Source of the DNA: Puniceibacterium sp.
Lineage (GTDB): Bacteria > Pseudomonadota > Alphaproteobacteria > Rhodobacterales > Rhodobacteraceae
Length of the DNA: 49,015 bases
Reading direction: 5' to 3'
NCBI GenBank assembly: GCA_024636635.1
Contig: JAGXGV010000004.1
Location: 1-49,015 of the forward strand
The notes under the pieces were generated by a model. That model made no database searches. It was not told the origin of the DNA and saw only the letters and a program-made list of their open reading frames with translations. The stretch's first letter is position 1, and each line of letters opens with the position of its first letter. The position numbers and the translations under genes are program-made. This document shows positions 11,172 through 31,267 of this stretch, in pieces.

Positions 11172-11947
11172 CCCTTGCCCTGCCCCGGACCGCCCCCGAT
11201 CAAAGCCCGCTTGCCATCCGCGGCCTTACCGTGTCCTACGGCGAACAACCGGTGGTGTTTTCCATCGACATGACCGTACAGGATGGCGCCATGACGGCCA
11301 TCATCGGCCCCAACGGCGCGGGCAAGTCCACCCTGCTCAAGGCCGCCCTGAACATCGTCAAACCGCTTTCGGGCCGCATCACCGTTTATGGCCAGCCGCT
11401 GGCGCAGCAGGCCCACCGCATCGCCTACGTGCCCCAGCGCGCCTCTGTCGACTGGGATTTCCCGACCGAGGTGCTGGATGTCGTGCTGATGGGTCTCTAC
11501 CGCGACCTCGGCCTGCTGGGCCGTGTCCGTGCCCATCACATACGGCAGGCCCGCGACTGCCTCGCCCGCGTCGGGATGGAGGATTTTGCCGACCGCCAGA
11601 TCGGCCAGCTTTCGGGCGGCCAGCAGCAGCGGGTTTTCCTCGCGCGCGCACTGGCGCAGAAGGCCGATCTCTACCTGCTTGATGAACCCTTTGCCGGGGT
11701 CGATGCCGCCACCGAAAGTGCCATCATCGACGTACTCAAAAGCCTGCGCGCCGAGGGCAAGACCGTGGTCGCCGTCCACCACGACCTGTCCACCGTCAGG
11801 GCCTATTTCGACAACGTCTTCCTGATCAACCGCCGCAAGATGGGCGAAGGCCCTATCGCGGCGGCCTTTACCCCCGAAACGGTGCAGGCCACCTATGGCG
11901 GACGCCTGGCGGACGGGCAGATCAGCCAGCTGACCATGGGCGCCTAG
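11168..11947 (+). CDS. Metal ABC transporter ATP-binding protein
   Basis: Walker A GPNGAGKSTL, signature LSGGQQQR, Walker B DLYLLDEPFAGVD; ATGA overlap with the upstream gene. Confidence 0.94.
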   Translation: MTLALPRTAPDQSPLAIRGLTVSYGEQPVVFSIDMTVQDGAMTAIIGPNGAGKSTLLKAALNIVKPLSGRITVYGQPLAQQAHRIAYVPQRASVDWDFPTEVLDVVLMGLYRDLGLLGRVRAHHIRQARDCLARVGMEDFADRQIGQLSGGQQQRVFLARALAQKADLYLLDEPFAGVDAATESAIIDVLKSLRAEGKTVVAVHHDLSTVRAYFDNVFLINRRKMGEGPIAAAFTPETVQATYGGRLADGQISQLTMGA

Positions 11948-13150: not shown

Positions 13151-14055
13151 TGGGCGACGAATTCGTCATCCTCTCGCTTGCGCCGCTGCTGATCGGCATC
13201 TGTGCAGCCGTCGCCTGCGCCCTGCCCGGCAACTTCCTGCTGCTGCGCCGCCAGGCCCTGATCGGCGATGCCATCAGCCATGTCGTGCTGCCCGGGATCG
13301 TCGTCGCCTTCCTTGTGACAGGCCGGATCGCCGCCTGGCCGATGATGCTGGGGGCTGCCTGCGCCGCTCTCGTTGCCGTGCTCCTGATCGAGACGATCCG
13401 CCGCCTTGGCCGCGTCGACGCCGGCACCGCCATGGGCGTCATCTTCACCTCGATGTTCGCCGCCGGGGTTCTCCTGCTCGAACAATCCGACACCTCGTCG
13501 GTACATCTCGATGTGGAACACGCCCTCTACGGCAATCTCGAAAGCCTGATCTGGCTCGACGCAACGGGCTGGTCCTCGCTGCTCGACCCCCGGGCGCTTG
13601 CCGGCCTGCCACCCGAACTGCCCCGCATGGCGCTGACCCTGCTGGCGGTCTCCGTCGCCATCCGGATCTTCTGGCGGCCGCTGAAGCTTGCCACCTTCGA
13701 CGAAGGTTTTGCCCGCACGCTCGGCATCCCCGTGCAAGTGCTCAGCCTCGGCCTCGTCGTCACCGCCGCCATCGCCGCCGTCGCCGCCTTCGACGCGGTC
13801 GGCTCGATCATCGTGATCGCCATGTTCATCTGCCCGCCCGCAGCCGCGCGCATGATGACCAACCGCCTCTCGGCCCAGATCTGCTGGAGCGTGGCCTTCG
13901 CCACCCTCTCGGCCATCCTCGGCTATGTGCTGGCGGGCTACGGCCCGCTCTGGCTCGGCGGCACCGATGCGGTCTCGGCGGCCGGCATGATCGCCACGGT
14001 GTCCGGCCTCATCCTGGCCGGTGTCGCCGTCATCGGGCCGCACCGCACCGCCTGA
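13147..14055 (+). CDS. Metal ABC transporter permease
   Basis: ABC-3 family: RRQALIGDAISHVVLPGIVVAF, FDEGFARTLGIPV; overlaps the upstream permease by 4 nt. Confidence 0.93.
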   Translation: MMGDEFVILSLAPLLIGICAAVACALPGNFLLLRRQALIGDAISHVVLPGIVVAFLVTGRIAAWPMMLGAACAALVAVLLIETIRRLGRVDAGTAMGVIFTSMFAAGVLLLEQSDTSSVHLDVEHALYGNLESLIWLDATGWSSLLDPRALAGLPPELPRMALTLLAVSVAIRIFWRPLKLATFDEGFARTLGIPVQVLSLGLVVTAAIAAVAAFDAVGSIIVIAMFICPPAAARMMTNRLSAQICWSVAFATLSAILGYVLAGYGPLWLGGTDAVSAAGMIATVSGLILAGVAVIGPHRTA

Positions 14056-14058
14056 CCG

Positions 14059-14080
14059 CTTCTTCTTTTCACAAATACCC
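14059..14080 (-). repeat. 22-nt dispersed motif GGGTATTTGTGAAAAGAAGAAG (minus-strand orientation)
   Basis: Reverse complement of 14059-14080 matches 20979-21000 at 21/22 positions. Confidence 0.6.
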
Positions 14081-14163
14081 GTCTCCGGCCTCTCCCCGGG
14101 GACCGCCCTCCGCCGCCGCGACCCGACGGCGCAGCACGCAGCGACAGATGGGACTCAAATCCG

Positions 14164-14178
14164 GAACAAAAATGGAAC
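14164..14178. promoter_or_regulatory. LexA/SOS box GAAC-N7-GAAC
   Basis: GAACAAAAATGGAAC fits the alphaproteobacterial direct-repeat SOS box and lies 15 nt upstream of the dnaE2 start. Confidence 0.75.
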
Positions 14179-14193
14179 ATACTGCGACTCACC

Positions 14194-17130
14194 ATGACCG
14201 CAGAACTGTCCATCACCTCGAACTTCACCTTCCTCACCGGGGCCTCCCACCCCGAGGAATACATGCGCCGTGCCGCCATGCTCGACCTCTCGGCCATCGC
14301 CATCGCCGACGACAATTCCGTCGCCGGCATCGTGCGCGCCCACACCGCCGGGCGCGAGATTGCCCGCCAGGTGGCGGAACGGCGGGCCTTCGACGCCGAA
14401 TACGGCCTCATCGGCCCCCCGGCGCCGCCCCACCTGCCGAAACCGCCCTCGGCCCCGATCCGCAACGTGCCCCGCCTGATCCCCGCCGCCCGCCTCGTCT
14501 TTGCCGAAGGGATCGAACTCACCGCTCTCGCCGCCACCCGCACCGGCTGGGCGCGGCTCTGTCGGCTGATCTCGTGCGGGCGGTTGCGCGCGGCCAAGGG
14601 GCGCTGCGACCTGCACCTGTCCGACCTTCTGGAAGATGCGGACGGGCTCGAACTGCTCCTGCACGGCCCGCAACACCCACAGACGATGCCGCCCGGCGCG
14701 GATGGATGGCTGCAACAGGCGCAACGGCTGACGCGCCGCCTTGGCGGGCAGATGCACCTTGTGCTTGCGCCGCATTATGACGGACAGGACGGGGCCCGGT
14801 GCGACGCCCTTGCCGCGCTCGCCAGACGCCTGAACCTGCCCACCGTCGCCTCGGCCTGCCCGCGCATGCACCACGGGCGGCGGCGGCGGCTGGCCGATGT
14901 GCTCAGCGCCATCCGCCTTGGCTGCCGCGTCGAACAGCTGGGGCATGCCGCACTTGCCAACAGCGAACTGCGCCTGCGCAGTGGCGCAGAGATGCGCGCC
15001 CTTCTGGGCCCCCACGCCGATGCCGTTTCCCGCGCGCAGGCACTGGCCGACCGCTGCACCTTTGACCTTGGCAGCCTGCGTTACGAATACCCCAGCGAAA
15101 TAGCACCAGGCGAAAACGGACAGGGCGAAACCCCGCCGCAGCGTCTGGCCCGGCTCGCCCATGCGGGGCTGAAATGGCGCTATCCCTACGGCGCGCCCGA
15201 CAAGGTGCGCACCATGCTCGCCCATGAGCTCGACCTGATCGGCCGCCTGAAATACGAACCCTATTTCCTGACCGTGCGCGACATCGTCGCCTTTGCCCGT
15301 GACCGCGGCATCCTGTGCCAGGGGCGGGGATCAGCCGCCAATTCCGTGGTCTGCTACGCGCTTGGCGTCACCTCGGTCAGTCCGGAAATCGGCACCATGG
15401 TCTTTGAACGCTTCGTGTCCGAGGCGCGGGACGAGCCGCCCGATATCGACGTCGATTTCGAACACGAACGCCGCGAAGAGGTGATCCAGCATATCTATGA
15501 ACGCTATGGCCGCCACCGTGCGGGCCTGTGTGCGACGGTGATCCACTACCGCGGCAAACGCGCCATCCGCGAGGTGGGCGCGGCGATGGGCCTGTCGCGC
15601 GACACCATCGGCGCGCTGTCCTCGCAACTCTGGGGGTTCTTTTCCACCAACGGGCTCGAAGATCAGCGGATGCGCGAAATCGGCCTGGACCCGGCCGACC
15701 GCCGTCTGCAAATGACGATGCAGCTGATCCACGAGATCATCGGCTTTCCCCGCCACCTGTCCCAGCATGTCGGCGGCTTCATCATCACCGAAGGGCGGCT
15801 GGACGAACTTGTCCCGATCGAAAACGCCAGCATGGAGGACCGCACCGTCATCTGCTGGGACAAGGACGACATCGATTCCCTGGGCATCCTCAAGGTCGAT
15901 GTGCTGTCGCTGGGGATGCTGACCTGCATCCGCAAGGCATTCGATCTGATGACCCAACACCACGGCAAGACCTATACCCTGGCCACCCTGCCGCCCGAGG
16001 ATCCGGTGGTCTACGACATGCTCTGCCGCGCGGATTCCGTCGGGGTCTTTCAGGTTGAATCCCGCGCGCAGATGAATTTCCTGCCCCGGATGAAGCCACG
16101 CAACTTCTATGATCTGGTGATCGAGGTGGCGATCATCCGCCCCGGCCCCATCCAGGGCGACATGGTGCATCCCTACATCCGGCGCCGGAATGGCGAAGAG
16201 GCGGTGTCGTTCCCGTCCGACGCGCTGGGGGCGGTGCTGGGCAAGACGCTGGGCGTGCCGCTGTTTCAGGAGCAGGCCATGCAGATCGCCATCATCGGCG
16301 CGAATTTCACCCCGACCGAGGCGGACCGGTTGCGCCGCAGCCTCGCCACCTTCAAGAAACACGGAAATGTCAGCGAATTCCGCGACCGTTTCCTGCGGGG
16401 GATGCGCACCAACGGCTATGATTCCGATTTCGCCGAACGCTGTTTCAGCCAGATCGAGGGGTTCGGCTCTTACGGCTTTCCAGAAAGCCATGCGGCCAGC
16501 TTTGCGCTGCTGGTCTATGCCAGTGCCTGGATCAAATGCCACCATCCCGGCCTGTTCGCCTGTGCGCTGCTGAATTCCCAGCCGATGGGCTTCTATGCCC
16601 CGTCGCAGATCGTGCGCGATGCCCGCGAACACGGGGTCGAGGTGCGCGCCGTCAGCATCAATGCCAGCTACTGGGACAATGCGATGGAATCCGACGGGCG
16701 TGGCGGGCTGGCCCTGCGCCTTGGGTTTCGCCAGATCAAGGGGTTGCGCGACGAGGATGCCGCCTGGATCTCTGCCGCGCGCGGCAACGGATACCTCAGT
16801 GTGCGGGATGTCTGGCGCCGTGCGGGCCTTGCCCCGCCAGTCCTCGCCCGGCTGGCCGAGGCGGATGTGTTTGCCGACATCGGCCTGACCCGCCGCGAGG
16901 CCCTGTGGGAGGCAAAGGCGCTGGCGGGCGACGCCCCTCTGCCGCTGTTCGCGAACGATATCGGCGGCGAGATGATCCATGAGCCCGCCGCCTGTCTGCC
17001 CGAAATGACCGAGGGCGAACAGGTGGTCGAGGATTACGTCGCCATGCGCCTGACCCTGCGCCGCCACCCGCTTGCCCTGCTGCGGCACCTGCTCACGCCG
17101 ACCGACGGGTCGCCGCCGTGGGGTTCCTGA
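14194..17130 (+). CDS. dnaE2: Error-prone DNA polymerase DnaE2/ImuC, apparently C-terminally truncated
   Basis: PHP domain and DnaE2-type polymerase motifs (CQGRGSAANSVVCYALGVT, DIDVDFEHERREEVIQHIYERYG, GSYGFPESHAASFALLVYASAWIKCHHP); ends soon after VVEDYVAMRLTLRRHPLALLR. Confidence 0.93.
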   Translation: MTAELSITSNFTFLTGASHPEEYMRRAAMLDLSAIAIADDNSVAGIVRAHTAGREIARQVAERRAFDAEYGLIGPPAPPHLPKPPSAPIRNVPRLIPAARLVFAEGIELTALAATRTGWARLCRLISCGRLRAAKGRCDLHLSDLLEDADGLELLLHGPQHPQTMPPGADGWLQQAQRLTRRLGGQMHLVLAPHYDGQDGARCDALAALARRLNLPTVASACPRMHHGRRRRLADVLSAIRLGCRVEQLGHAALANSELRLRSGAEMRALLGPHADAVSRAQALADRCTFDLGSLRYEYPSEIAPGENGQGETPPQRLARLAHAGLKWRYPYGAPDKVRTMLAHELDLIGRLKYEPYFLTVRDIVAFARDRGILCQGRGSAANSVVCYALGVTSVSPEIGTMVFERFVSEARDEPPDIDVDFEHERREEVIQHIYERYGRHRAGLCATVIHYRGKRAIREVGAAMGLSRDTIGALSSQLWGFFSTNGLEDQRMREIGLDPADRRLQMTMQLIHEIIGFPRHLSQHVGGFIITEGRLDELVPIENASMEDRTVICWDKDDIDSLGILKVDVLSLGMLTCIRKAFDLMTQHHGKTYTLATLPPEDPVVYDMLCRADSVGVFQVESRAQMNFLPRMKPRNFYDLVIEVAIIRPGPIQGDMVHPYIRRRNGEEAVSFPSDALGAVLGKTLGVPLFQEQAMQIAIIGANFTPTEADRLRRSLATFKKHGNVSEFRDRFLRGMRTNGYDSDFAERCFSQIEGFGSYGFPESHAASFALLVYASAWIKCHHPGLFACALLNSQPMGFYAPSQIVRDAREHGVEVRAVSINASYWDNAMESDGRGGLALRLGFRQIKGLRDEDAAWISAARGNGYLSVRDVWRRAGLAPPVLARLAEADVFADIGLTRREALWEAKALAGDAPLPLFANDIGGEMIHEPAACLPEMTEGEQVVEDYVAMRLTLRRHPLALLRHLLTPTDGSPPWGS

Positions 17131-18658: not shown

Positions 18659-19735
18659 ATGTCCGATTTCGAAGCCCAGGTCCGCCAGAGCCAGGCCCAG
18701 GTAGCCGAGGCGCAGGCCAAGATTTCCGAACTCACCAGCCGGATCGAGACGACGCGCGCCAAGATAAAGGCCGGCGACGACGTCACCATCGACATCGAGA
18801 CTGCGACGCTTGACGACGTGAATACCCATACCGACGTGATGAACGCCAACATCGCCGAGCTGATCATGGGGCTGGACGATGTCACCTCGGCGTTTTCGCG
18901 TGACTTCGACGAGATGCGCAACAAGACCGGGTGGGAAAGCCTTGTCGGGGTCTTTTCCAAGGGCAAGTCGGATTCGATGCGGCACGAACGCATCAAGATG
19001 GCCAGCATCGACGACAAGTTGCAGGATCTGATCGGCAAGTCCGATGTGATCGTGAAACTGCTTGAGGGGCAATTGCTTCTTCTCAACGAGCAGAAGGACC
19101 GGGTTGAGACGAACCTGTCCGAAACGCTGGACGAACGCGAATTCACCGTGGGTGAGCTTGAGGCGGTGAAGGCCGAGGTTCTGAAGCTGGACCCCCGGAT
19201 CATCGACCTTGAACGGCGGATTTCCATGGAGCAGGACGCGGCAGCGCGCACCAAGCTGGAAACTGAACTGTCGGATCTGAACCGCGCCTATAATGCGCTG
19301 GTGCAGGACGAACAGGTGAAGCTTGCCAAATCGCAGACGCTGGAACGCTATATCGAGAAGGGCAAGACCTGGATAGATTCGCTCCAGAATCAGGCGGCGA
19401 CGCAGATGGTACTGATCAACAAGCTTCAGACCGATACGAAACAGCGGGTGGTGCTGTACGATGCCCTGTCCAAGTCGCTCAAGACCGCGCAGCAGCAGGA
19501 TGTGGCGCACCGGATCAACGAAATCGGCGTACAGAGCGATCAGGAGGCGCAGACCGCGATGGCCGCCATCGGCACAGCCACCAATCAGCGCATGGCCGAC
19601 ATGATGGAAAAGCACGAGGATCACATGGTCTTTGCCCGCGAGGTGCTGGAGGCCAAGGCCAGGGCGGACGAACGGTTTGCCCGACGTTTTGCGTCAATCG
19701 TCGAGAAGCACGACAAGAACCTGTACGGGTCGTGA
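18659..19735 (+). CDS. Coiled-coil protein, TelA/toxic-anion-resistance-like
   Basis: 358-aa largely helical, low-aromatic protein (MSDFEAQVRQSQAQVAEAQAKISELTSR...) with TelA-like organisation; RBS AAGGAGA. Family assignment by pattern only. Confidence 0.6.
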   Translation: MSDFEAQVRQSQAQVAEAQAKISELTSRIETTRAKIKAGDDVTIDIETATLDDVNTHTDVMNANIAELIMGLDDVTSAFSRDFDEMRNKTGWESLVGVFSKGKSDSMRHERIKMASIDDKLQDLIGKSDVIVKLLEGQLLLLNEQKDRVETNLSETLDEREFTVGELEAVKAEVLKLDPRIIDLERRISMEQDAAARTKLETELSDLNRAYNALVQDEQVKLAKSQTLERYIEKGKTWIDSLQNQAATQMVLINKLQTDTKQRVVLYDALSKSLKTAQQQDVAHRINEIGVQSDQEAQTAMAAIGTATNQRMADMMEKHEDHMVFAREVLEAKARADERFARRFASIVEKHDKNLYGS

Positions 19736-19833
19736 TGCAGGACGGTGGTCGCAGCAAAGCGGAACGGGGCGCCAGACTTCTGTCGGCCTTCCTTGACCGC
19801 TGCGCAGGGGCCGTGCGGGTGGCGTCGGCATGA
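19735..19833 (+). CDS. Putative 32-aa micro-ORF (MQDGGRSKAERGARLLSAFLDRCAGAVRVASA)
   Basis: Start overlaps the upstream stop (TGATG) and its stop overlaps the downstream start (ATGA). Absent from the supplied ORF track. Confidence 0.5.
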   Translation: MQDGGRSKAERGARLLSAFLDRCAGAVRVASA

Positions 19834-20948
19834 GCGATCTGACCAACGACCATGTGGGTCTGAGCGATACCTTTGCGTCGCGCCGCTATTTTGCCAAGTT
19901 CGAGGCGATCAGCGGGCATCTCGCACGCGTCGCCGCGGTGCTGCATTCCGAAGGCAGGCTGGGGCGCGAAGAGGTCGAGGTGCTGGCGCGCTATGTGCAG
20001 GGCATCGCCTTTACCTTCCGCGCGCTTGGCTACAAGTATCTGCTGGTCGGGCGGGACACCGGGCAGTTCTTTGGCTCTTTGACCATGGACAACCACGAAT
20101 CGGGGTTTCCGGTCGCTTCGGAATTGCTGGTGATGGCGAACGATGCGTTGCAGGCGTGCGGGCATCTGGACGCGATGCCGTCGGTCGCCGTGCTGAAGGA
20201 TCAGATGGTGGCGCAGATCATCGGCGAACGGAGCCTGCCGACGCGCCTGCAATATGCCCTGAGCCAGCGGCTGTATTACGAGGAGTTGTCGCGGGGCAAG
20301 CTGTTCTGGCCGCGTAACGATCCGGTGGCGGTCTGGCTGTCGGGGGCCGAGCCGCGGCGGCGTTACCTGATCCACTGGGCGGTCTACGATTCGGTCATCA
20401 ACCTGCCGGTGGTCTACCTGATGGAGGTCGAGGATTCGGGGCGCGAGGCGCTGCCGCGCGACCAGCGCCGCTGGCCCGAGGTTCAGACGCATCTCATGGG
20501 GCAGGCGCTGGGGGGTCTGAAGCTGCTGACCATCGCCAGGGGATTCGACGAGAGTTTCGCCGACCTGCATCCCAAGCGGCTGCGGCGCCTGCATCTGGGA
20601 CCGATGTATTCGCATGCCTTCACGCGCCAATCCGGCCCGATCCGCGAGGTGCTGGCCGAGGCACATGCCCCCGCCGGTCAGGACTGGGCGCTGGCCTGGA
20701 CGCTGGAAGAGCTGGAAAGCGAGCGGGTGCGCGAGGAACGCACCGGCTGGTTCGGCACGGTGGAACGCGAGATCTTTGCGCTCGACCCGTTTTCGGGGCG
20801 CGGAATCGAGACGGGGGCCACCCGCAGCGAACGCATGATCGTCCTGCCCGAACGGCCCTATCAGGTGCTCGCTGAAAAGGCGCCGCCGGGATTTTCCGCC
20901 GTGCGCAAGTTTGTGGTGAGTCCGGGGGGGCGGGTGCTCAGTTACTGA
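19830..20948 (+). CDS. Conserved-type hypothetical protein of the TelA/AAA operon
   Basis: 372-aa ORF, coupled to upstream; no family recognised with confidence. Confidence 0.8.
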   Translation: MSDLTNDHVGLSDTFASRRYFAKFEAISGHLARVAAVLHSEGRLGREEVEVLARYVQGIAFTFRALGYKYLLVGRDTGQFFGSLTMDNHESGFPVASELLVMANDALQACGHLDAMPSVAVLKDQMVAQIIGERSLPTRLQYALSQRLYYEELSRGKLFWPRNDPVAVWLSGAEPRRRYLIHWAVYDSVINLPVVYLMEVEDSGREALPRDQRRWPEVQTHLMGQALGGLKLLTIARGFDESFADLHPKRLRRLHLGPMYSHAFTRQSGPIREVLAEAHAPAGQDWALAWTLEELESERVREERTGWFGTVEREIFALDPFSGRGIETGATRSERMIVLPERPYQVLAEKAPPGFSAVRKFVVSPGGRVLSY

Positions 20949-20978
20949 GGGATGTCTTGTGCCCGAGGGGTGGATTCT

Positions 20979-21000
20979 GGGTATTTTTGAAAAGAAGAAG
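20979..21000 (+). repeat. 22-nt dispersed motif GGGTATTTTTGAAAAGAAGAAG
   Basis: 21/22 match to the reverse complement of 14059-14080. Confidence 0.6.
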
Positions 21001-21017
21001 CGGGAGAGCGCCAGGAC

Positions 21018-22958
21018 ATGAGCCAGACATCCGACCTTATGGAATTGCGCGAGGCAGACATCCGCAAGCATTACGCCGCTGCGGCGGCGCTGCTGGAAGG
21101 GTTTGACCACACGCCGCGGATCGCCCGGGCGCGGGTGTCAGGGCCGGCGCAAGAGCGGTCGCCGGGCATTGCCGCGGGGCGGCGGTTGCGCAGCACGACG
21201 CCCGGGCTGGTGACCCGCAGCACCGCGCGTCCCGAGGGCGTGCATCTGATCGCCCGGATCGAGGCGATGCATGGCGACGATCCGCTGCTGTCGCCCTTGC
21301 AGGCGACGGCGATCAGCCTTCTGCGCCGGGCGCTGTCCATTGCGCTTGCCGTCGGCGAGACGTTTTCGGACGCGACCGGGCTTGGCGCGCTCAAGCGCGT
21401 CAACCTGCAGGGGCCGATCGGCGACGATCGCCGCGCAGAGTTCACCGAACTGCTGGGTGCCGAGGCGCTGGCCGTTGCCCATGTGTTTGCCAATGCGCTG
21501 GCCTTCCTGCTGCGCCCGCATGGGCCGGACATTTCGGTGACGATCGGGGATGTGGACGAGGTGCTGACCGAAAATGCCGGATTGGCCCTGCACGGCGCGC
21601 TCTGGCAGCTTGATCAGGAGATCGCGACCCATGTCGGCGACGATGCGCATCTTGTCGCCACGCTGAGCGCCTATGCCGAGGCGCTGATGGCGCAGGTGGC
21701 GTTGCGGGCGCAGGGCGCCCCCCGGGTCGCCGCCTTTTCCGGGGCAAGCTGGCGTGTCGAGGCGGACGATTTCACCATCCGCGGCTTTCAGCCATCGACG
21801 CAGGCGCGCGGCACGACCCTGACCATGCAGTTCAAGAAACCCCAAGAGGTCGTCGGCAACCATATCGCCAAATATCAGGCCCTGCGTCTGTCCAAGATGC
21901 TGATGGCCTATGATTTTGACCGCCGCCTGAACCCGTTTGCGGACCTTGGCGGGTTCATTTTCACCTTCATGGGGGACGGCGCGCCCGGCACCGGCAAGAC
22001 GACGCTGATCCAGATGATGGCGGGCCTTTTGCACGGCTATTGCGAGGTGGCGGGCTATCCGTTCCGTTACCAGAATCTGAGCACCGAGAATATCGACAGC
22101 TATCAGGGCAAGTCGGGCCAGAATGCCAAGGCGTTCATCGACCACATCCTAGACCCTGCGGTGATCGGGTTCGGCACCATCGACGACATCGACCAGCTTG
22201 CGGGCAAGAGGGGCGACCGGCAATCCTCGGCCGGGCAGCTCGAGATTACCGCGGTGCTGATGGAATCGTTCGCGGGGGCAAATACGGTGGTCCGCGGCAA
22301 CTGTACCTTCGGGATGTTTTCGAACTTTCCCGAAAATGTCGACGATGCCCTGCGCCAGCGTGCCGGGGCGCGGTTTCTGGTGGACGGGCCGCAGACGCGC
22401 GAGGATTACATCGACATCCTTGCCTTGCTGTTGGGCAAGCGGCACAAGATTCCGCTGGGCGATCACGACCTGTTCGCCGCGCAGGAGGTCAAGCGGGCGG
22501 TGGCGGCAAGTTTTGAATCACATGCCCGCCCGCACGAGGCCGGGCTGATCGAGGTGTTCGAGCGGGTGCAGGGATCGGTCGGCGATCTGGACACGCTGGC
22601 CAAGCTGGGCACCTACCTCAAGGCGATCCAGATGGCGGATGCGCGGTTTACAGGCCGGGCGATCAAGAACATCACCGACGCGGTCAAGGTGCGGGCGATG
22701 GATTTCGAACTGCCGGACGACTGGATGGAACGGCCCGACGTCTTCCTGTTCCAGCCCTATGAGGTAAAGCTGGGCATGATTTCCGAACTGCGCCGCCCCA
22801 TCACCGTCGGGATGGTGATACAGGAAATCAATCGCTACGCGGATTCCGAGTTCCGCTATGCCGACAAGTCGGACGAGGCGGCTGTGGAGGCGATGGTGCG
22901 GGAGTATGAGCGGACTGAGGCCGCGAAGAAGCGGTATCTGGAGGGGAAGAATGGCTGA
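21018..22958 (+). CDS. AAA-family ATPase
   Basis: Walker A GDGAPGTGKTTLIQMMAG, Walker B-like VIGFGTIDDIDQLAG, downstream NCTFGMFSNFPENVDDALRQRAGARFLVDGP. Confidence 0.88.
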   Translation: MSQTSDLMELREADIRKHYAAAAALLEGFDHTPRIARARVSGPAQERSPGIAAGRRLRSTTPGLVTRSTARPEGVHLIARIEAMHGDDPLLSPLQATAISLLRRALSIALAVGETFSDATGLGALKRVNLQGPIGDDRRAEFTELLGAEALAVAHVFANALAFLLRPHGPDISVTIGDVDEVLTENAGLALHGALWQLDQEIATHVGDDAHLVATLSAYAEALMAQVALRAQGAPRVAAFSGASWRVEADDFTIRGFQPSTQARGTTLTMQFKKPQEVVGNHIAKYQALRLSKMLMAYDFDRRLNPFADLGGFIFTFMGDGAPGTGKTTLIQMMAGLLHGYCEVAGYPFRYQNLSTENIDSYQGKSGQNAKAFIDHILDPAVIGFGTIDDIDQLAGKRGDRQSSAGQLEITAVLMESFAGANTVVRGNCTFGMFSNFPENVDDALRQRAGARFLVDGPQTREDYIDILALLLGKRHKIPLGDHDLFAAQEVKRAVAASFESHARPHEAGLIEVFERVQGSVGDLDTLAKLGTYLKAIQMADARFTGRAIKNITDAVKVRAMDFELPDDWMERPDVFLFQPYEVKLGMISELRRPITVGMVIQEINRYADSEFRYADKSDEAAVEAMVREYERTEAAKKRYLEGKNG

Positions 22959-23005
22959 GGTCATCTCGATGACAGGACGGGCCGCGAGAGGTAAGGAGAT
23001 CCGAT

Positions 23006-23326
23006 TTGTTCACTAGGAAATTCAAGTATGTTGTCTATCAATTGACCTTCTCTAATGGCGAGATTTACGTGGGAAAAGACATTGGCTTTGGCGGACATTC
23101 CATCAGATACTTTGGTTCGTGGAATCGAGAAGTTGTCGAGCAAGAATTTTCGAAGAAGGCAGACTTTACGCTGCGCAAACTGATACATTTTGTAAATGAG
23201 AGTAAAGAAGAAGTCAGTCGAGTTAAAAACGAACTTATTTTATCGCTTGGAGCAAATTATCTCGAAATTGGCTACAATAATACGCCCAAACTTCGGAAGA
23301 CATTGAATCGGGATCGGGGCCATTGA
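23006..23326 (+). CDS. GIY-YIG-like nuclease family protein (TTG start)
   Basis: YVVYQLTFSNGEIYVGKDI resembles the GIY-YIG core; SIRYFGSWNREVVE... NELILSLGANYLEIGYN; RBS-like AAGGAG before TTG; strikingly AT-rich against surroundings. Confidence 0.65.
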   Translation: MFTRKFKYVVYQLTFSNGEIYVGKDIGFGGHSIRYFGSWNREVVEQEFSKKADFTLRKLIHFVNESKEEVSRVKNELILSLGANYLEIGYNNTPKLRKTLNRDRGH

Positions 23327-24651
23327 AACGCCTCATCCAAACCGGCCTGATGTTCGGCAATCTGATCCGCGTCGACTCGCCTGCGCTGGTCGAGCGGTAT
23401 AACCGCGCGCTGAAACACCTCACCACCCACACAACCAACCTTAAAGAATTCCATATCGACATCTCCGGCTTTTCGCCCGAGATCGGGGCGGAACTGGGCG
23501 ATCCGCTTTACCTCAACCCCAGAGGCGTGAACCGGATGTTCATCCTGCTGTCCACGCAGCAGAAGACCGCGCCGTTGCTTGATGCCAAATTCTCGACCTC
23601 GCGCGGGATCCTGCGGCAATTCATCGAGACCAACGAGGCGCAGCTTTTCGCGCTGACCGCAAAGGATGCCGTAGGCGGAGAGCTGGTGAATTCGGTCCAT
23701 GACGTCAGCGACCCGGCGCGCCTGCTGGACATCCGAAAGATCCGGATCGAGGCGGATACCTCCAGCGGCACCCTGCGCGATGCCGACAAACTGGCGCAGA
23801 TGGTCGACACGTTCCAGACCAAAGACGACGCCTGGTATGACGATGTGCTGATCGCCGACATGATCACGCTGGCGAAACGCACAGGGGATGTGGTGCGCAA
23901 TCCGGTGCGGCTGAGCCATATGGAATTTACACAGGGCAATTTCTGGACTGCGCATTTCGGCGGGATCTACATCTTTCGCGACGTGCCCGAACCGGCGGCG
24001 ATCCTGGCCGGGCCGCCGCTGGTCCTGCCCATCGACACCGTGCTGCGCACGGAGAACCGCAACCGCATCGCCGCCTTTCTGGACACCAACCGGCTGGTCG
24101 AGCCCATCGTTCAGGCGCGCGGGGTCGATGCCGCGGCCGTGCTGCGCCAGAAGATGGATTTCATAACCGTGGACGCGGCGCAGGATGCGGAAATCGACCT
24201 GTCCGGCGCGACGCGGCGCGACATCCGACTGCTGGCGCGGCGTCATTCCGGCGACCTGCCGGCCGAATGGCACGGTCTGAACGCGCTTGTCGCCTGGGCC
24301 GAGGGCGAAGGCACCTGGCCGCATCTTACGTCAGAGCATCCGGCGTATTTCTACACACTGCGGGGGGCGGACACGCCCGACCGGGATCTGGTCAACATGC
24401 TGCTGGCGGAACTGGCGCCCAAGGACATCCGCCAGTTGTTCATCTGTCACAAGGATCTGTTCTATCGGCTTTACCAGGACTGGGGCGAGACAAAGAAAAC
24501 CTACGTGATCGATTTCCTGACCCGGGAGTATCAGGTGGACAAGGCAGGCGCGCGCCACGCCCTGTTCGGTCACGACGCCCCGATGCAGGAAGAACCGCAA
24601 GGCGCCCCCGCCAGCGTGCCACGCGTCGGTCCCTGGGGGCCGGCACGATGA
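23323..24651 (+). CDS. Uncharacterised protein (possibly a DUF6638-type family; from memory, unverified)
   Basis: 442-aa ORF, TTG start overlapping the upstream TGA, stop overlapping the downstream ATG. Confidence 0.8.
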   Translation: MKRLIQTGLMFGNLIRVDSPALVERYNRALKHLTTHTTNLKEFHIDISGFSPEIGAELGDPLYLNPRGVNRMFILLSTQQKTAPLLDAKFSTSRGILRQFIETNEAQLFALTAKDAVGGELVNSVHDVSDPARLLDIRKIRIEADTSSGTLRDADKLAQMVDTFQTKDDAWYDDVLIADMITLAKRTGDVVRNPVRLSHMEFTQGNFWTAHFGGIYIFRDVPEPAAILAGPPLVLPIDTVLRTENRNRIAAFLDTNRLVEPIVQARGVDAAAVLRQKMDFITVDAAQDAEIDLSGATRRDIRLLARRHSGDLPAEWHGLNALVAWAEGEGTWPHLTSEHPAYFYTLRGADTPDRDLVNMLLAELAPKDIRQLFICHKDLFYRLYQDWGETKKTYVIDFLTREYQVDKAGARHALFGHDAPMQEEPQGAPASVPRVGPWGPAR

Positions 24652-24914
24652 TCGCCCTGCTGCAACTGATGGTCGGCGGTTTCATCGTGCTGACACTGGT
24701 CTATATCGCCCTTTCGTTCTATTCACGCTCCGTACGACGCGGCAAACTAAAAGCCGAGTGGGACGAAGAAGGCATGACCGGCGATCGGGAAGCCTTTGTG
24801 CGGCAGGGGCTGAAGGACTATGATGGATCATTGCGGCGCAAGCTGATCCTCGGGGTCTATGTGGTGCCGGTCGTGCTGATCGGGGTGATCATCTACCTCG
24901 TCAATTTCTACTGA
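24648..24914 (+). CDS. Small two-TM membrane protein
   Basis: MIALLQLMVGGFIVLTLVYIALSFYSRSVRRGKLKAEWDEEG...LILGVYVVPVVLIGVIIYLVNFY; ATGA overlap. Confidence 0.8.
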   Translation: MIALLQLMVGGFIVLTLVYIALSFYSRSVRRGKLKAEWDEEGMTGDREAFVRQGLKDYDGSLRRKLILGVYVVPVVLIGVIIYLVNFY

Positions 24915-24927
24915 GAAGGGGGCCGCA

Positions 24928-25572
24928 ATGGTCTACGTCAAATGGGTGATCATCCTGCTGTTCTGGGCCTGTGTCGGGGCCTTCCTGCATTATACCCTGC
25001 CACAGCACGATATCGTGCGCGTCACGGACACCTATACGCGGCGCGTGGACCCGGGAGAGAACCGGTGGTTCTGGGCGCAGGCGGATGTGGGCACGGATGG
25101 CACGCTGGTCAACCGCGACGTCTTTTTCATCCAGACGCGGCGGGCCGGGGAGGACGTGATGGTCTACCGGAACGAGGATACCGGCTGGGGCTGGCCGCCG
25201 TATTTCAAGTTTGACACCTCGAACCTCCAGGCCGAGGCGTCGGACCTGCGCTCCACGTCCGAGGCGCCGCGATGGGCGGTGCTGACGCACTACGGCTGGC
25301 GCAACGAATTCTTCACGATCTTTCCCAACGCTGTGGGTATCCGACCCGTGGACGGGCCGGATGTGCGCATCATCCCGTGGGTGAACATCTTCATTCTCAC
25401 GATTCTGGCCGCCTTTATCTGGGCCTTCTGGGTGCGCTGGCGCCGGTTCAAACGCAACCGGATCAACCCGGTGCTTGCCGACATGAACGAAGGATTCGAG
25501 GCGGCGGGTGATTCCTTTGCCGAACGGCGTGGCCGCTTCGGGCGCTGGCGGGACAGCTGGAAATCGAAGTGA
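24928..25572 (+). CDS. DUF1523-like membrane protein
   Basis: FLHYTLPQHDIVRVTDTYTRRVD, VYRNEDTGWGWPPYFKFDTSNLQAEASDL, HYGWR; N- and C-terminal TM segments. Confidence 0.8.
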   Translation: MVYVKWVIILLFWACVGAFLHYTLPQHDIVRVTDTYTRRVDPGENRWFWAQADVGTDGTLVNRDVFFIQTRRAGEDVMVYRNEDTGWGWPPYFKFDTSNLQAEASDLRSTSEAPRWAVLTHYGWRNEFFTIFPNAVGIRPVDGPDVRIIPWVNIFILTILAAFIWAFWVRWRRFKRNRINPVLADMNEGFEAAGDSFAERRGRFGRWRDSWKSK

Positions 25573-25586
25573 TCCCTGGACCTGCG

Positions 25587-27002
25587 TCAGCGGTTCATGT
25601 CGGGCAGCAGTCGCTGGTGGCGGCGCATCGCATTCACGGCATCGCGCAGCGTGTGGACGCCGCGCGCCTCAAGGATCGGCAGTAGCCGCAGCAGGACCGA
25701 GGCGGTGGCGCGCGCATCCCCCATCGCTGTATGCCGCGCCGCGCCTTCGATCCGGATCCCCAGGCGTTCGGCAATGGCATCCAGCGTATGCTCTTCGGTT
25801 TCGCCGAACACTGCCGCCGACAGCAACACCGTATCCAGCACCGGATTGTCAAAGGAAACACCGGTCACGTCCGCATGGCGCCGGAGAAAGGCCAGATCGA
25901 ACGGCGCGTTATGCGCCACCAGCACCGCGTCGCGGGCAAAATCATGAAACCGCCGCGCGGCGATGCGGATATCGGGGGCCCCGGTTACCATCGCATCGGT
26001 GATGCCGTGGATGCGCGCCGAGGCCGGGGGGATCGGGCGGCCGGGATCGACAAGCGTCTCGAATGTCTCGCCGGGGATCATCCGGCCCTTCATCGCACGG
26101 ACCGCACCAATCTGCACGATTTCGTCGCGCGTGGTGTCCAGCCCTGTCGTTTCCGTATCGAAGATCACAAAGGTCAGCGCCGAAAGCGGCGTATCGGCCA
26201 CATCGCCGTTCCCGGCGCGGTCGATCAGATCGAAATCGAAGACAAGCGGCCGTTCGGCCATCACGGCGTCATCCACCTCGATCGCAAGGACATAGCCGCG
26301 CGCCTGACCGATCAGCCGGATGCGCGCCCGCACGCTGCCCAGCCCGTCGGCCGTGGGCAGGTCCACATCGGCAAAGCGGCGGTCGGTGGCGGTTTGCAGG
26401 CGCGTGACCGCCTCGGTCAACGGAGCGCGCTCGAAGTACTCGAACACCGACCGGTCAAGACCCAGGGTCGCGACCTGCCCCAGCGCGTGTACGCATTGCC
26501 GGTCATACAGGGTGATCCGGTCGCGCGCATCCACCACCATGACGGCCACCGGAATCTCTGACAGGATCGCGGCAAGCTGGGCCTTTTCGGCCTCTAGATC
26601 CGCAGTCGCCAGTGCCAGGCGGGATTCGACTTCGTTTCTTTCTGTGGTCAGACGCTCGCACAGCGCGGCGGCGGCGGGGCCAAGGTCGCCCAGGTGGCGC
26701 GCCGAGGCGATATCCAGCCCGTCAGAGACGCCGCCATGGGCGCGGGCCCGTAGCCCGGCGGCAATCCTGTCGATCACGCGCGCGACATTCTCGTCAAAAA
26801 GCCGCCAGATCAGGACGATGGTCAGGCCCGTTGCGAACAGGGAAACCACGGCCGCCACGGTCAACGCCGGCATCGCCTCGGGTGCACGGCGCCATCCCAG
26901 CCAGACACCTGCCAGAGTGGCCGCAACCGCACCCCCGACGATGGCGGCGAACAGCAAAAGCACGCGCAGCCGGAGCGAGGCGCGCATCTCAGATCGCCTC
27001 AC
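25587..27002 (-). CDS. Membrane-anchored PAS-like/3'-5' exonuclease (DnaQ-like DEDDh) protein
   Basis: Two N-terminal TM segments, PAS-like middle, and FVIFDTETTGLD / VAHNAPFDLAFL / HTAMGDARATA exonuclease motifs. Confidence 0.88.
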   Translation of the reverse strand: MRRSEMRASLRLRVLLLFAAIVGGAVAATLAGVWLGWRRAPEAMPALTVAAVVSLFATGLTIVLIWRLFDENVARVIDRIAAGLRARAHGGVSDGLDIASARHLGDLGPAAAALCERLTTERNEVESRLALATADLEAEKAQLAAILSEIPVAVMVVDARDRITLYDRQCVHALGQVATLGLDRSVFEYFERAPLTEAVTRLQTATDRRFADVDLPTADGLGSVRARIRLIGQARGYVLAIEVDDAVMAERPLVFDFDLIDRAGNGDVADTPLSALTFVIFDTETTGLDTTRDEIVQIGAVRAMKGRMIPGETFETLVDPGRPIPPASARIHGITDAMVTGAPDIRIAARRFHDFARDAVLVAHNAPFDLAFLRRHADVTGVSFDNPVLDTVLLSAAVFGETEEHTLDAIAERLGIRIEGAARHTAMGDARATASVLLRLLPILEARGVHTLRDAVNAMRRHQRLLPDMNR

Positions 27003-27507
27003 AGGCCGTTTGTGTCACCGGGTCACCGGGATCTGTGGCGATCCAGTTCGCCTCTGGCACGCTGCCGTCCCCGGACAATTCGACGCCGCCCCGCAGGTCG
27101 GCGCGCCGCCCTTGCAGGCAGTCGAAAACCGATGTCACGCGCACTGTCGGCGTCCAGCGGCCAAAGAGATAGACATCCACCATTTTCTGCCCCTCGACAT
27201 CGGCATGGGTCCGGGCCGATCGGTGATCGACCGCGACAAAGCGGTCGACGTAGCGCACCACATAGGTCCAGGGCCGCCAGATCGCCCGGCTTTCATGCGT
27301 CGAGGCCACCTCGACCTGATCCGGCAACCCGGCCGCCGTGCGACCATACCAGGAATATTCCAGCGAGATCGCAACCACCAGCATCGCGCCGCCTGCCGCA
27401 ACGGGAACGATCCAGCCCGGCAGGGTGCGGATTGTCCGGCGAGCCAAGGCACCAACGCCCCCTGCGGCAAAGCCCGCGACGATGACGGCGATCAGTTCAA
27501 ACAGCAT
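26989..27507 (-). CDS. Hypothetical membrane protein
   Basis: 172-aa ORF with two N-terminal TM segments between the exonuclease and DUF294 genes; overlaps the exonuclease gene start. Confidence 0.75.
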   Translation of the reverse strand: MLFELIAVIVAGFAAGGVGALARRTIRTLPGWIVPVAAGGAMLVVAISLEYSWYGRTAAGLPDQVEVASTHESRAIWRPWTYVVRYVDRFVAVDHRSARTHADVEGQKMVDVYLFGRWTPTVRVTSVFDCLQGRRADLRGGVELSGDGSVPEANWIATDPGDPVTQTACEAI

Positions 27508-27537
27508 GGGGTCATCCTTTTGCGGCCCTTGGGTGCG

Positions 27538-29403
27538 TCACGGCAGACTCCGGCCCTGACCGGCAGCCGATTGCATACGGCGGACCACGACAAAGGCGTC
27601 GCGCAGGTGGCTGCGTTCGAATTCGCTCAGATCTGCGGGCGCCATGAAATTGTCGGGCTTCTGACCGCGCCGCACCTGTTTCGCCTGATGATCAAGCCGG
27701 GTCTGCGCGATCAGGTCGTAGGCGTCCAGCAGATCGCGCCCGCCACCGTCAGAAATCACGCCCGCATCGCGTGCCGCCTCGATCCGGGCGCGGGTCCGCA
27801 CCGGGGCAAGCCGACCACGCAGCGCATAGATCCGTCCCAGATCGACAACCGGCACCACGCCGCTCAGCTTGAGGTCGAGGCGGTCGCGATGTTCGCCCGC
27901 GCGTAGTGTGGTCAGCCCCCGCCACAGTCCCAGCGGCGGCGCGTGGGTCAGCGCGTTTGACACCATATGTGCAACAAATATCGAGTTTTTCGACGCGGCT
28001 TTCAGCGTTTCGGAATGCAACCCATCGTAAAGTGTGTGGTCGCCGCCGATCGGGCGCAGGTCGAACATGACGGAGGCCAGCATCTGCGCCATAGGGTCGG
28101 GTCGGTCGATCCAGCCGCGGAAGTATTTTCGCCAGACGCGGACCGGCTGGCGCCAGCGCGGCGTGGTCGCCATCATTTCACCCGGGCAGAAGACATAGCC
28201 GCATTCGTCCAGTCCGTTCGAGACATATGCTGCCAGAGCCCCAAAATAGGCATCGTGTTCGGGGCGCGCGTCGTCGGACAGCATCATCGCATTGTCCTGA
28301 TCCGACACGCCGGTCTGTTCCTGCCGACCCTGACTGCCGCAGGCAAGCCAGAGATAGGGCACTGGCGGCGAGCCGAGATCCGCCTCGGCCAGCGTCAGCA
28401 GACGCCGCGTGACCGCATCGGCGATGTCGGTGATCAGCCTTGTGACCACATCGTGGCGGTTGCCCGCCCCGACAAGCTGGGCCAGCAACTGGGGAATGCG
28501 CGCCGTGGCTCGCGCAAGCGCCGCACCATCCGGTGCCCGCGCCACATCGCCGATCACTCCGGCCGAGCTTTCGGCCTGGAACCGGGTCAGGTCGGTCTGG
28601 GTGACGATGCCGACAAGCCCGGTATTTCCCGCGCCAGTGTTGCCCAGGCCAGTGCTGCCCAGGCCAGTGTTGCCCAGGCCAGTGTTGCCCAGGATCGGCA
28701 CATGACCGATACCCCGTTCCATCATAAGATGCAGCACGTCAGAGCCGATGGCATCAGCGGGCAGGCTGACCGGATCGGGAGTCATGGCGCGTGTCACCGG
28801 CGCATCCGGCGACAGTCCTTCGGCCACGACGCGCCCCGATATGTCGCGGATGGTCAGAATGCCCAGCAGGAGGCCGCGCTCTGCGACCATCAATGACGAG
28901 ATGTGCCGGTCGCGCATGATCCGCGCGGCATCGGCAATGGTCGTTTCCGGGCCGATGGTGGCCGGATCAGGCGTCATCAACTGATCTACGCGCAGTGTGG
29001 CCAGCCCGGGCGGTTGCGCCCGGGGCGGGCGGGCGCGGGCAAAGAAATCGCGCAATTCGGCGTTGCCGTCGATCAGCGCGCGGAATTGCCCGGCAGGCAG
29101 CATCAAAAGCTCGGTTGCGGCCAGCGCGCGGGCGGTGGTGGCCGCACGCCCGTCGCGCATCAGCCCGCGTTCGCCGAACACGTTGCGCGGACCCAGAGTC
29201 GACAGCGTCCCGCCGTCCTGGTCCGTCACCTCGACGCTGCCTGAACGCAGGATGTACAAACCTTCAAGAAGGTCACCCACGCGGTAGACTGTGTCGCCCG
29301 CGTCAACCCGCCGCATCCGGAAATCGCCTGACAGGGCGTCCAGCGCCTCGAACGTCAGCGTGCTCCACGGATGGATCGTGGCAAGGAATTCGGTATCGTT
29401 CAT
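27538..29403 (-). CDS. Cyclic-nucleotide-binding / CBS / DUF294 nucleotidyltransferase-like protein
   Basis: From MNDTEFLATIHPWSTL: CNMP domain (GLYILRSGSVEVTDQDGG), CBS pair, GSQGRQEQTGVSDQDNAMM nucleotidyltransferase-like motif. Confidence 0.9.
   Translation of the reverse strand: MNDTEFLATIHPWSTLTFEALDALSGDFRMRRVDAGDTVYRVGDLLEGLYILRSGSVEVTDQDGGTLSTLGPRNVFGERGLMRDGRAATTARALAATELLMLPAGQFRALIDGNAELRDFFARARPPRAQPPGLATLRVDQLMTPDPATIGPETTIADAARIMRDRHISSLMVAERGLLLGILTIRDISGRVVAEGLSPDAPVTRAMTPDPVSLPADAIGSDVLHLMMERGIGHVPILGNTGLGNTGLGSTGLGNTGAGNTGLVGIVTQTDLTRFQAESSAGVIGDVARAPDGAALARATARIPQLLAQLVGAGNRHDVVTRLITDIADAVTRRLLTLAEADLGSPPVPYLWLACGSQGRQEQTGVSDQDNAMMLSDDARPEHDAYFGALAAYVSNGLDECGYVFCPGEMMATTPRWRQPVRVWRKYFRGWIDRPDPMAQMLASVMFDLRPIGGDHTLYDGLHSETLKAASKNSIFVAHMVSNALTHAPPLGLWRGLTTLRAGEHRDRLDLKLSGVVPVVDLGRIYALRGRLAPVRTRARIEAARDAGVISDGGGRDLLDAYDLIAQTRLDHQAKQVRRGQKPDNFMAPADLSEFERSHLRDAFVVVRRMQSAAGQGRSLP
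28619..28693. repeat. 15-bp tandem repeat (four clear units plus one degenerate) inside a CBS domain
   Basis: ccagtgttgcccagg x4 at 28634-28693 (one T/C variant) plus ccggtatttcccgcg at 28619; encodes NTGLG pentapeptides. Confidence 0.9.
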
Positions 29404-29425
29404 CAAAGGCCCCAGAGAAGCGAAT

Positions 29426-29452
29426 GCCCCGACCGCGCATTGCGGACGGGGC
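29426..29452. terminator. Hairpin GCCCCGACCGC-gcatt-GCGGACGGGGC between symporter and DUF294 genes
   Basis: 11-bp stem with one mismatch; no clear U tract. Confidence 0.4.
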
Positions 29453-29467
29453 AGGCGCAGTATGTCT

Positions 29468-29493
29468 GGCGGGCACCGCGCGCGATGCCCGCC
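29468..29493. terminator. Second hairpin GGCGGGCA...TGCCCGCC, possible attenuator
   Basis: 8-bp perfect stem read directly; no clear U tract. Confidence 0.4.
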
Positions 29494-29500
29494 CCTGTCA

Positions 29501-31267
29501 TCAGTGGTCTGTCGCAGTGCCAGCGCCGCGCGGCACCCGGACGCTTTCGACCAGCTGCTTGATGTGGTCGGGCGTTTCGGCCGTCGATTTCGACACGAAA
29601 TAAGCCACCGCAAAGTTAAGCATGGCGCCCACCGCACCGATGGCCGTCGACTGGATCCCGAACAGCGAGCCCGAGATCGTATCCTCGAACTGGTTGGTAC
29701 CGGGAACAAAGAACCAGCCCTTGTGCAGGAAGATGTAGACCACGGTAAAGACCAGACCTGCAAGCATGCCCGCAACCGCTCCCTTGTCATTGATGGTCTT
29801 TGTGAAGATGCCCATCATCAGCGCCGGGAAGATCGTTGCCGCCGCAAGTCCGAAGGCCAGCGCCACCGTCTGGGCCGCAAAGCCCGGAGGGTTGAGGCCC
29901 AGCCAGGTGGCCACAGCAATCGCCACTGCCATCGAGATCCGCGCCGCCATAAGCTCTCCGCGTTCCGAGATGTTCGGGTTGAACCGACCCTTGATCAAAT
30001 CGTGGCTGACCGCGCCCGAAATCGCCAGCAGAAGACCCGCCGCCGTAGACAGTGCCGCCGCAAGGCCGCCGGCAGCGACAAGGGCGATCACCCAGCTGGG
30101 CAGGTTGGCGATTTCCGGGTTGGCAAGGACCAGAATGTCGTTGTTGACGGTCAGTTCATTGCCTTCCCAGCCACGCTCCTGTGCGATCGCGGCGCCTTCG
30201 CTGTAATACTGGATGCGACCGTCGCCGTTCAGATCATCGAACGATATCAGACCGGTGACTTCCCAGTTGCGGATCCAGTCGGCGCGATCTTCGTATGCGA
30301 TCGGCTCTTCTGCGGTTCCGTTGGGATAGATCGTGTCCAGCAGGTTCAGACGCGCCATCGCAGCCACGGCCGGGGCCGTGAGGTAGAGCAGTGCAATGAA
30401 AACAAGCGCCCAGCCCGCCGAAATCCGCGCGTCCGACACCCGCGGCACGGTGAAGAAACGGATGATGACATGCGGCAGGCCCGCGGTGCCGATCATCAGC
30501 GACAGGGTGAACAGCGTCATGTTGATGACGGCCGAAGGCGCCGGATCCTGCGAGGTGTATTCGCGGAAGCCAAGGTCGGTGACGACTTCGTTCAGGCGTG
30601 CAAGCAGCGGTTCACCCGTCGGCGTGTAGTTCGAGAACAGGCCCAGACCGGGGATCGGGTTTCCGGTCAGTTGCAGCGAGATGAAGATTGCGGGGATGGT
30701 ATAGGCCGTGATCAGCACGATGTATTGCGCCACCTGTGTGTAGGTGATGCCCTTCATCCCGCCCAGGACGGCATAGAGAAAGACCACTGCCGCACCGATG
30801 TACAGGCCGGTCGAAACCTCGACCTCGAGAAAGCGTGAAAAGGCCACGCCCACTCCGGTCATCTGGCCAATGACATAGGTGACAGAGGCCACGATCAGGC
30901 AAATTACCGCGACAAGCCGCGCGGTCGGGCTGTAGAACCGGTCACCGATGAACTCGGGCACGGTGAACTTGCCGAATTTGCGCAGGTAAGGCGCAAGCAA
31001 CAGCGCCAGCAGCACATAGCCCCCAGTCCAACCCATCAGATAGGCCGAGCCGTCATAGCCCAATACGGCAATCAGGCCGGCCATCGAGATGAAAGAGGCA
31101 GCCGACATCCAGTCCGCCGCCGTTGCCATGCCGTTTGTGATCGGGTGAACACCCCGGTTGGCGGCATAGAACTCGGCAGTCGATCCGGCGCGGGCCCAGA
31201 TTGCGATCCCGATATACAGCGCGAACGTGGCGCCTACCACAATCAGGTTGAGTGTGTATTGATCCAT
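29501..31267 (-). CDS. Sodium:solute symporter (ActP-like, VC_2705-type)
   Basis: 12+ TM SSS-family protein (GMATAADWMSAASFISMAGLIAVLGYDG, RFFTVPRVSDARISAGWALVF), adjacent small DUF4212-like subunit. Confidence 0.9.
   Translation of the reverse strand: MDQYTLNLIVVGATFALYIGIAIWARAGSTAEFYAANRGVHPITNGMATAADWMSAASFISMAGLIAVLGYDGSAYLMGWTGGYVLLALLLAPYLRKFGKFTVPEFIGDRFYSPTARLVAVICLIVASVTYVIGQMTGVGVAFSRFLEVEVSTGLYIGAAVVFLYAVLGGMKGITYTQVAQYIVLITAYTIPAIFISLQLTGNPIPGLGLFSNYTPTGEPLLARLNEVVTDLGFREYTSQDPAPSAVINMTLFTLSLMIGTAGLPHVIIRFFTVPRVSDARISAGWALVFIALLYLTAPAVAAMARLNLLDTIYPNGTAEEPIAYEDRADWIRNWEVTGLISFDDLNGDGRIQYYSEGAAIAQERGWEGNELTVNNDILVLANPEIANLPSWVIALVAAGGLAAALSTAAGLLLAISGAVSHDLIKGRFNPNISERGELMAARISMAVAIAVATWLGLNPPGFAAQTVALAFGLAAATIFPALMMGIFTKTINDKGAVAGMLAGLVFTVVYIFLHKGWFFVPGTNQFEDTISGSLFGIQSTAIGAVGAMLNFAVAYFVSKSTAETPDHIKQLVESVRVPRGAGTATDH

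Follow-up and report, generated by a model that had tools for sequence, protein, structure and literature searches.

A conserved AAA-protein operon of Rhodobacterales with a variable cargo slot at a fixed gene junction

The window analyzed here is contig JAGXGV010000004.1 (assembly GCA_024636635.1) of Puniceibacterium sp., a stretch of 49,015 nt, in which the region 18659–25572 holds an operon built around an AAA protein. Eight open reading frames (ORFs), all on the + strand, are present in this region, in agreement with an earlier sequence-only reading that had described a coupled same-strand run of seven or eight genes. The operon begins with gene A (18659–19735), encoding a 358-aa coiled-coil protein, followed by a 32-aa micro-ORF (19735–19833) and gene C (19830–20948), encoding a 372-aa core protein without a fold match. 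Gene D (21018–22958) encodes the putative AAA motor of 646 aa. The interval between D and F (22959–23322), the content of which changes from genome to genome, is occupied in the window genome by gene E (23006–23326), which has a TTG start downstream of AAGGAG and encodes a GIY-YIG-related protein of 106 aa. Gene F (23323–24651; 442 aa) also starts with TTG, overlapping the stop codon of the cargo, and is followed by gene G (24648–24914), encoding an 88-aa protein with two membrane spans predicted by eye, and gene H (24928–25572), encoding a membrane protein in which a middle domain is flanked by one span at each end (by eye). The stop codon of A and the start codon of the micro-ORF share TGATG (19733–19737), and further start/stop overlaps are found at 19830 (ATGA), 23323 (TTGA), and 24648 (ATGA); the C–D, D–E, and G–H junctions are spaced by 69, 47, and 13 nt, respectively. 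A scan for promoters and terminators gave no more signals than expected by chance. The 442-aa product of F, labeled as unknown in the sequence-only reading, is a DUF6638 protein (PF20343), whereas the assignment of the last gene as DUF1523-like stands (PF07509); no Pfam family exceeds the cut-off for A, C, E, or G.

A scan of genome contigs detected at least 579 stretches encoding relatives of D, the best 80 of which were retained together with 13 more loci from kin genomes. Among the 93 loci thus fetched, a few represent the same contig twice and some contigs end inside the operon; the 80 genome-contig loci are those nearest to the window, rather than a random sample. The order A, C, D, F, G, H is kept in nearly all of the 93 loci, with C found near D in 92, F in 90, G and H in 89 each, and A in 87. 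The conservation of the operon is far above chance, its gene order recurring in hundreds of bacteria from the sea and from soil.

Within this conserved frame, the strongest feature is a variable cargo slot at the D/F junction, which the sequence-only reading had missed. The D–F distance in the 80 genome-contig loci has a median of 788 nt (interquartile range, 401–1011), in contrast to the fixed F–G and G–H intervals with medians of 3 and 11 nt, respectively; the median of the C–D interval is 75 nt. Of the ORFs found between D and F by our own heuristic ORF caller, 92 are oriented with the operon and 4 opposite to it (binomial p = 9e-23). Their mean GC content is 0.51, compared with 0.60 for the core genes, and lies more than 3 points below that of the core in 60 of 86 cases and above it in 9. 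The cargo often overlaps both of its neighbors by ATGA: in 28 of 66 loci, the start of the first cargo ORF shares four bases with the stop codon of D, and in 38 of 66, the end of the last one shares four bases with the start codon of F. The D–F gap is shorter than 150 nt in 8 of 77 loci, and in two cargo-free loci (L024 and L058) D and F directly overlap by four bases. We regard the anatomy of the operon and its slot as practically certain.

Comparison of closely related loci revealed how rapidly the content of the slot changes. Among 27 pairs of loci in which D is at least 90% identical, the cargo is shared (≥50% identity) in 7, both slots are empty in 2, and the cargo is different in 18, and even operons that are 97–99% identical bear unrelated cargo. 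In the pair L032/L048, D is 98.6% and the core proteins are 95–99% identical, but the cargo in the D–F intervals (11932–12770 in L032 and 2980–3910 in L048) is unrelated; at the DNA level, the first 60 bases from the start codon of F are fully identical, and just upstream there is no identity above chance. The units of exchange are entire genes, replaced with gene-exact borders within a frame operon that stays. Near-identical operons with different cargo, as in L032/L048, L065/L106, and Marivita species, constitute natural swap experiments. A same-genus comparison with empty sites was abandoned, because the downstream exonuclease gene was unusable as an anchor.

The A–C interval is also variable (median, 210 nt in the 80 genome-contig loci) and forms a second, smaller slot that mostly contains tiny membrane proteins with one or two spans. 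No counterpart of the 32-aa micro-ORF, which the sequence-only reading had counted as an operon gene, was detectable in other A–C intervals; it is probably no gene but a short form of the variable interval, and it was dropped from the gene list. In one locus (L090), this interval (8034–8685) contains a gene for a Phd antitoxin and, behind it, a possible toxin gene.

The cargo in the fetched loci falls into 40 clusters at an E-value of 1e-4. One 17-member family (L032, L039, L045, L050, L051, and others) comprises coiled-coil proteins anchored in the membrane, which have a common N-terminal membrane segment (PNExGDTLAGxAGxLAFxWIIxTV) but differ in their C-termini, and contains both the putAbiC matches (Pfam, 4 members) and the AbiP matches (PADLOC, 4 members). 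Other cargo families include AbiJ_NTD4 (2 members), Mrr_N with Mrr_cat, DUF559, RNase_T exonuclease, DUF2971/PDC-S31, PIN_10, HATPase proteins with a DrmA match, DUF4145, and thioredoxin-like proteins. Small membrane proteins that belong to no family make up a large share of the cargo. The slots of Rhizobiaceae are repeatedly filled by a DUF559 endonuclease gene (11106–11510 in L110, and, assigned partly by eye, L131, L132, L134, L136, L139, and L140).

The cargo of the window genome, E, has no Pfam match of its own, but shows 37% identity over 84% of its length (E-value, 1e-11) to plasmid proteins annotated as GIY-YIG nucleases; homologues sought in phages were not found. On inspection by eye, the Tyr and Gly of the first GIY-YIG motifs are kept, and a Lys is located where three homologues have Glu, making the activity of E uncertain. 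The gene differs markedly in composition from the conserved operon genes, with a GC content of 0.40 and a third-codon-position GC content (GC3) of 0.43, compared with 0.56–0.65 and 0.73–0.84, respectively. By this composition, E is a foreign GIY-YIG-related gene, probably acquired recently. In Puniceibacterium confluentis (L030; D, 86%), the nearest relative, the slot is filled by a DnaQ-like exonuclease instead. The GIY-YIG kinship of E and the recurrence of DUF559 genes in Rhizobiaceae would suit a slot into which selfish nucleases (homing-type GIY-YIG, DUF559, and HNH) insert, with the core as a bystander. We consider this explanation improbable, since most of the cargo in Rhodobacterales is non-nuclease, the AbiJ, putAbiC, and membrane proteins are no homing genes, and E itself carries the Lys at the Glu column of its homologues.

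The linkage of the core genes extends well beyond the nearest loci. A search for DUF6638 in 398 Pseudomonadota genomes gave 26 positives including the window's own, and D adjoins F in every locus fetched from this search, covering Rhodobacteraceae, kin of the Rhizobiaceae type, and two other families. In a tblastn search of 72,556 plasmid records, A, C, and D share one set of ten matching records (Sinorhizobium, Shinella, Rhizobium, and Vibrio), with one additional weak match for A. D is found without a following F in three genomes, all of which encode F elsewhere, in one of them beside G and H, whereas the stretches fetched around F from the remaining two contain neither; in these genomes (L046, L049, and L087; G436–G438) the operon is split exactly at the D/F junction. 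The gene order in Sinorhizobium is A–C–D–[DUF559 gene, insertion sequence]–F–DUF2333, and the Vibrio plasmids have a cargo-free A–C–D–F. A–C–D–F is therefore the constant core of the operon. The proposal of the sequence-only reading that one unit is formed around an AAA protein with membrane partners is borne out by this near-absolute linkage, and the AAA gene co-occurs with the genes for the 372-aa, 442-aa, and DUF1523 proteins, the homologues not being scattered.

A survey of 298 genomes of the family, nearly all of which represent different genera, showed F in 129 (~43%). In a few genomes (G537, G545, G699, G561, and G483), the DUF6638 match is broken or incomplete, in some cases on a small contig, which reflects either decay of the operon or assembly gaps. 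The tree of D is mostly ordered by genus (Marivita, Ruegeria, Tateyamaria, and most Roseovarius), with one halomonad nested inside. Operons close to the roseobacter copies are found outside Alphaproteobacteria (L058 from Billgrantia antri, and G088, locus L127), which points to horizontal transfer. In the window, the operon is flanked upstream (10212–17130) by a metal ABC transporter cluster and a DnaE-type polymerase gene (14194–17130), and downstream (25587–31267) by genes for a DnaQ-like exonuclease and an acetate-permease-like protein, all assigned by eye.

Among the core proteins, A is the most conserved, with a mean column identity of 86% in 46 loci, and is 39% and 34% identical to the Sinorhizobium and Vibrio homologues, respectively. 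It had been described as TelA-like in the sequence-only reading, and its coiled coil and its size, about that of TelA, would be in keeping with a TelA-type toxic-anion (tellurite) resistance operon. However, A has no Pfam match to TelA (PF05816) in three lineages, an hhalign comparison with TelA gave a probability of 2.7% over 41 columns, and the true TelA of the same genome is encoded on another contig (C70, 5801–6790; L001), far from the operon. With this negative profile–profile comparison, membership of A in the TelA family is not supported, and a tellurite-resistance operon is highly improbable. C shows a mean column identity of 72% and gave a confident predicted model (predicted local distance difference test (pLDDT) score, 88), for which a fold search of PDB and BFVD found nothing at E ≤ 0.001. 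The top weak matches in PDB are T-fold enzymes (QueF-like and GTP cyclohydrolase; probability, 0.57 over 92 columns); the order of strands and helices in the model permits a T-fold, which we take as a mere lead.

D contains an AAA domain (PF00004; E-value, 3.7e-11; 44 bits against a cut-off of 21.2) in its C-terminal half, behind an unassigned domain of ~290 residues. In a seven-row alignment ranging from Rhodobacterales to Vibrio and a viral contig, the Walker A motif, DDxDQ, the sensor-1 Asn, the arginines, and an aromatic pore loop (YQGK) are invariant. The features expected of an AAA ATPase (Walker A and Walker B, sensor 1, arginine finger, and pore loop) are all present; judging from these motifs, D should be a working AAA motor. 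D also gives a weak match to TRIP13 (E-value, 2.4e-5). F is matched by DUF6638 over residues 10–440 (E-value, 5e-220; 731 bits), and its predicted model (pLDDT, 83.5) found nothing in PDB at E ≤ 0.001. H is matched by DUF1523 with an E-value of 9e-72 (240 bits). A sequence search of PDB with A, C, D, and F gave nothing convincing, and no characterized homologue of A, C, or F was detected. In the literature, nothing was found on DUF6638, and DUF1523 receives one or two mentions in papers on other subjects; the operon is undescribed in the literature searched on it, on roseobacter defence, and on exchangeable effectors, a search for which most subscription papers and preprints were out of scope.

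The core is also found on an IMG/VR contig (IMGVR_UViG_3300035698_035310; 359,044 bp; L195/L196, 126603–146522) in the order of a DUF2333-like gene, A (46–47%), C (33%), three small ORFs, D (47%), and F (34%). The neighboring genes encode an Rz-like spanin and a DNA polymerase exonuclease subunit, and, by eye, products resembling SmpB, peptide deformylase, ClpA, and DnaJ. A short match to the Gp23 capsid protein on this contig exceeds the Pfam cut-off, and searches with Terminase_6N and phrog_2 gave no match; we provisionally take the contig for a giant phage. It is the only viral contig with D, and a second one has a homologue of A near its end.

The presence of the cargo slot shifts the likeliest role of the operon to conflict with phages or mobile elements. 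We tentatively favor, at just short of an even chance, a membrane-anchored AAA machine directed against phages or other mobile genetic elements, which serves as a chassis for swappable defence genes. In this machine, D would assemble into a ring powered by ATP and use its aromatic pore loop to thread or remodel a protein substrate; A, probably as an oligomeric scaffold, and C and F, as adaptors, would join it at the membrane. G and H would tie the core to the inner membrane in Rhodobacterales; Sinorhizobium and the viral contig have a DUF2333-type protein in the cluster instead. The slot would carry one to four accessory effectors that are translationally coupled to the operon and quickly exchanged, probably through recombination within the conserved genes on either side, the present occupant in the window genome being the putatively recent GIY-YIG acquisition. 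We infer the assembly into one complex, its docking to the membrane, the defence role, and the joint action of cargo and core. The defence role is proposed because defence genes are known to be embedded in defence loci and because abortive-infection, restriction, and toxin families are prominent in the identifiable cargo, whereas a control set of 51 conserved neighboring genes gave, in the 25 rows shown, families of metabolism, transport, and regulation; the patchy presence of the operon (129 of 298 genera) is also counted toward it.

Several observations weigh against the defence machine. No core protein strongly matches a known defence family, the TRIP13 match of D being weak, and about half of the cargo consists of small membrane proteins or proteins without a link to defence. 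PADLOC match counts fail to separate the cargo from the control set; since the 51 control genes match too, these counts were dropped as evidence for defence and only named families were used. Furthermore, the largely genus-wise tree of D suits a resident operon. It is distinctly possible, although we lean against it, that the core is a resident envelope or protein-homeostasis machine, remodeling membranes or protein assemblies under stress, and that the D/F junction is merely a permissive, well-expressed spot in which stand-alone defence genes and other accessory genes hitchhike. Besides the core tree, this explanation would account for an upstream neighborhood common to about 35 of the 80 genome-contig loci, for the membrane partners (G/H or DUF2333), for the loci with a D–F gap shorter than 150 nt, from which it follows that the core needs no cargo, and for the mutually unrelated cargo families. 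Absence of the operon from more than half of the sampled genera is, however, unusual for housekeeping, and neither an exchange so fast that nearly identical operons differ in cargo nor the presence of the core on a viral contig is readily reconciled with it.

A bolder form of the defence reading, which we consider unlikely, is that A–C–D–F itself represents a new class of membrane-anchored AAA immune machine, two proteins of which (C and F) gave no solved relative by sequence or predicted fold. In this reading, an effector gene plugged into the fixed translational slot would be fired by the core, and a giant phage would use the same chassis to its own benefit. Should the core turn out to provide immunity by itself, it would be a new class. 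The marker F occurs in ~43% of the sampled genera of the family, and the core also in Rhizobiaceae, Vibrio plasmids, and the 359-kb viral contig. Reading the stretch between the stop codon of D and the start codon of F out of many genomes can yield a catalog of candidate defence genes; the slot naturally records which small effectors are exchanged among bacteria.

Comparison with known systems places the operon beside several of them. TelA operons (PF05816) have a coiled-coil partner of similar size, to which A has no detectable homology. F and H are clear members of DUF6638 and DUF1523, both of which are names without a function, as is DUF2333, whose member follows F in Sinorhizobium and whose relative precedes A on the viral contig. 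CBASS operons with TRIP13 combine an AAA protein with exchangeable effectors, and the present operon similarly has an AAA protein, weakly matching TRIP13, and exchangeable genes; unlike CBASS, however, the window operon contains no nucleotidyltransferase (CD-NTase) or HORMA gene in Pfam, NCBIfam, and PADLOC scans. A further parallel is offered by defence genes embedded in defence loci, such as DarTG2 in a type I restriction-modification locus and Septu in Hma, from which 'guilt by embedding' has been formulated (PMC12255303). As in those loci, unrelated, exchangeable genes of defence type lie on the same strand inside a conserved multi-gene locus and vary by genome. The host locus here, in contrast, is no known defence system, and the exchange takes place very rapidly and gene-exactly at a single fixed junction, where ATGA overlaps couple the cargo to both neighbors. 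Altogether, loci with embedded defence genes are already known, and what is new here is the widespread uncharacterized core and the unusually fast, gene-exact exchange of its cargo.

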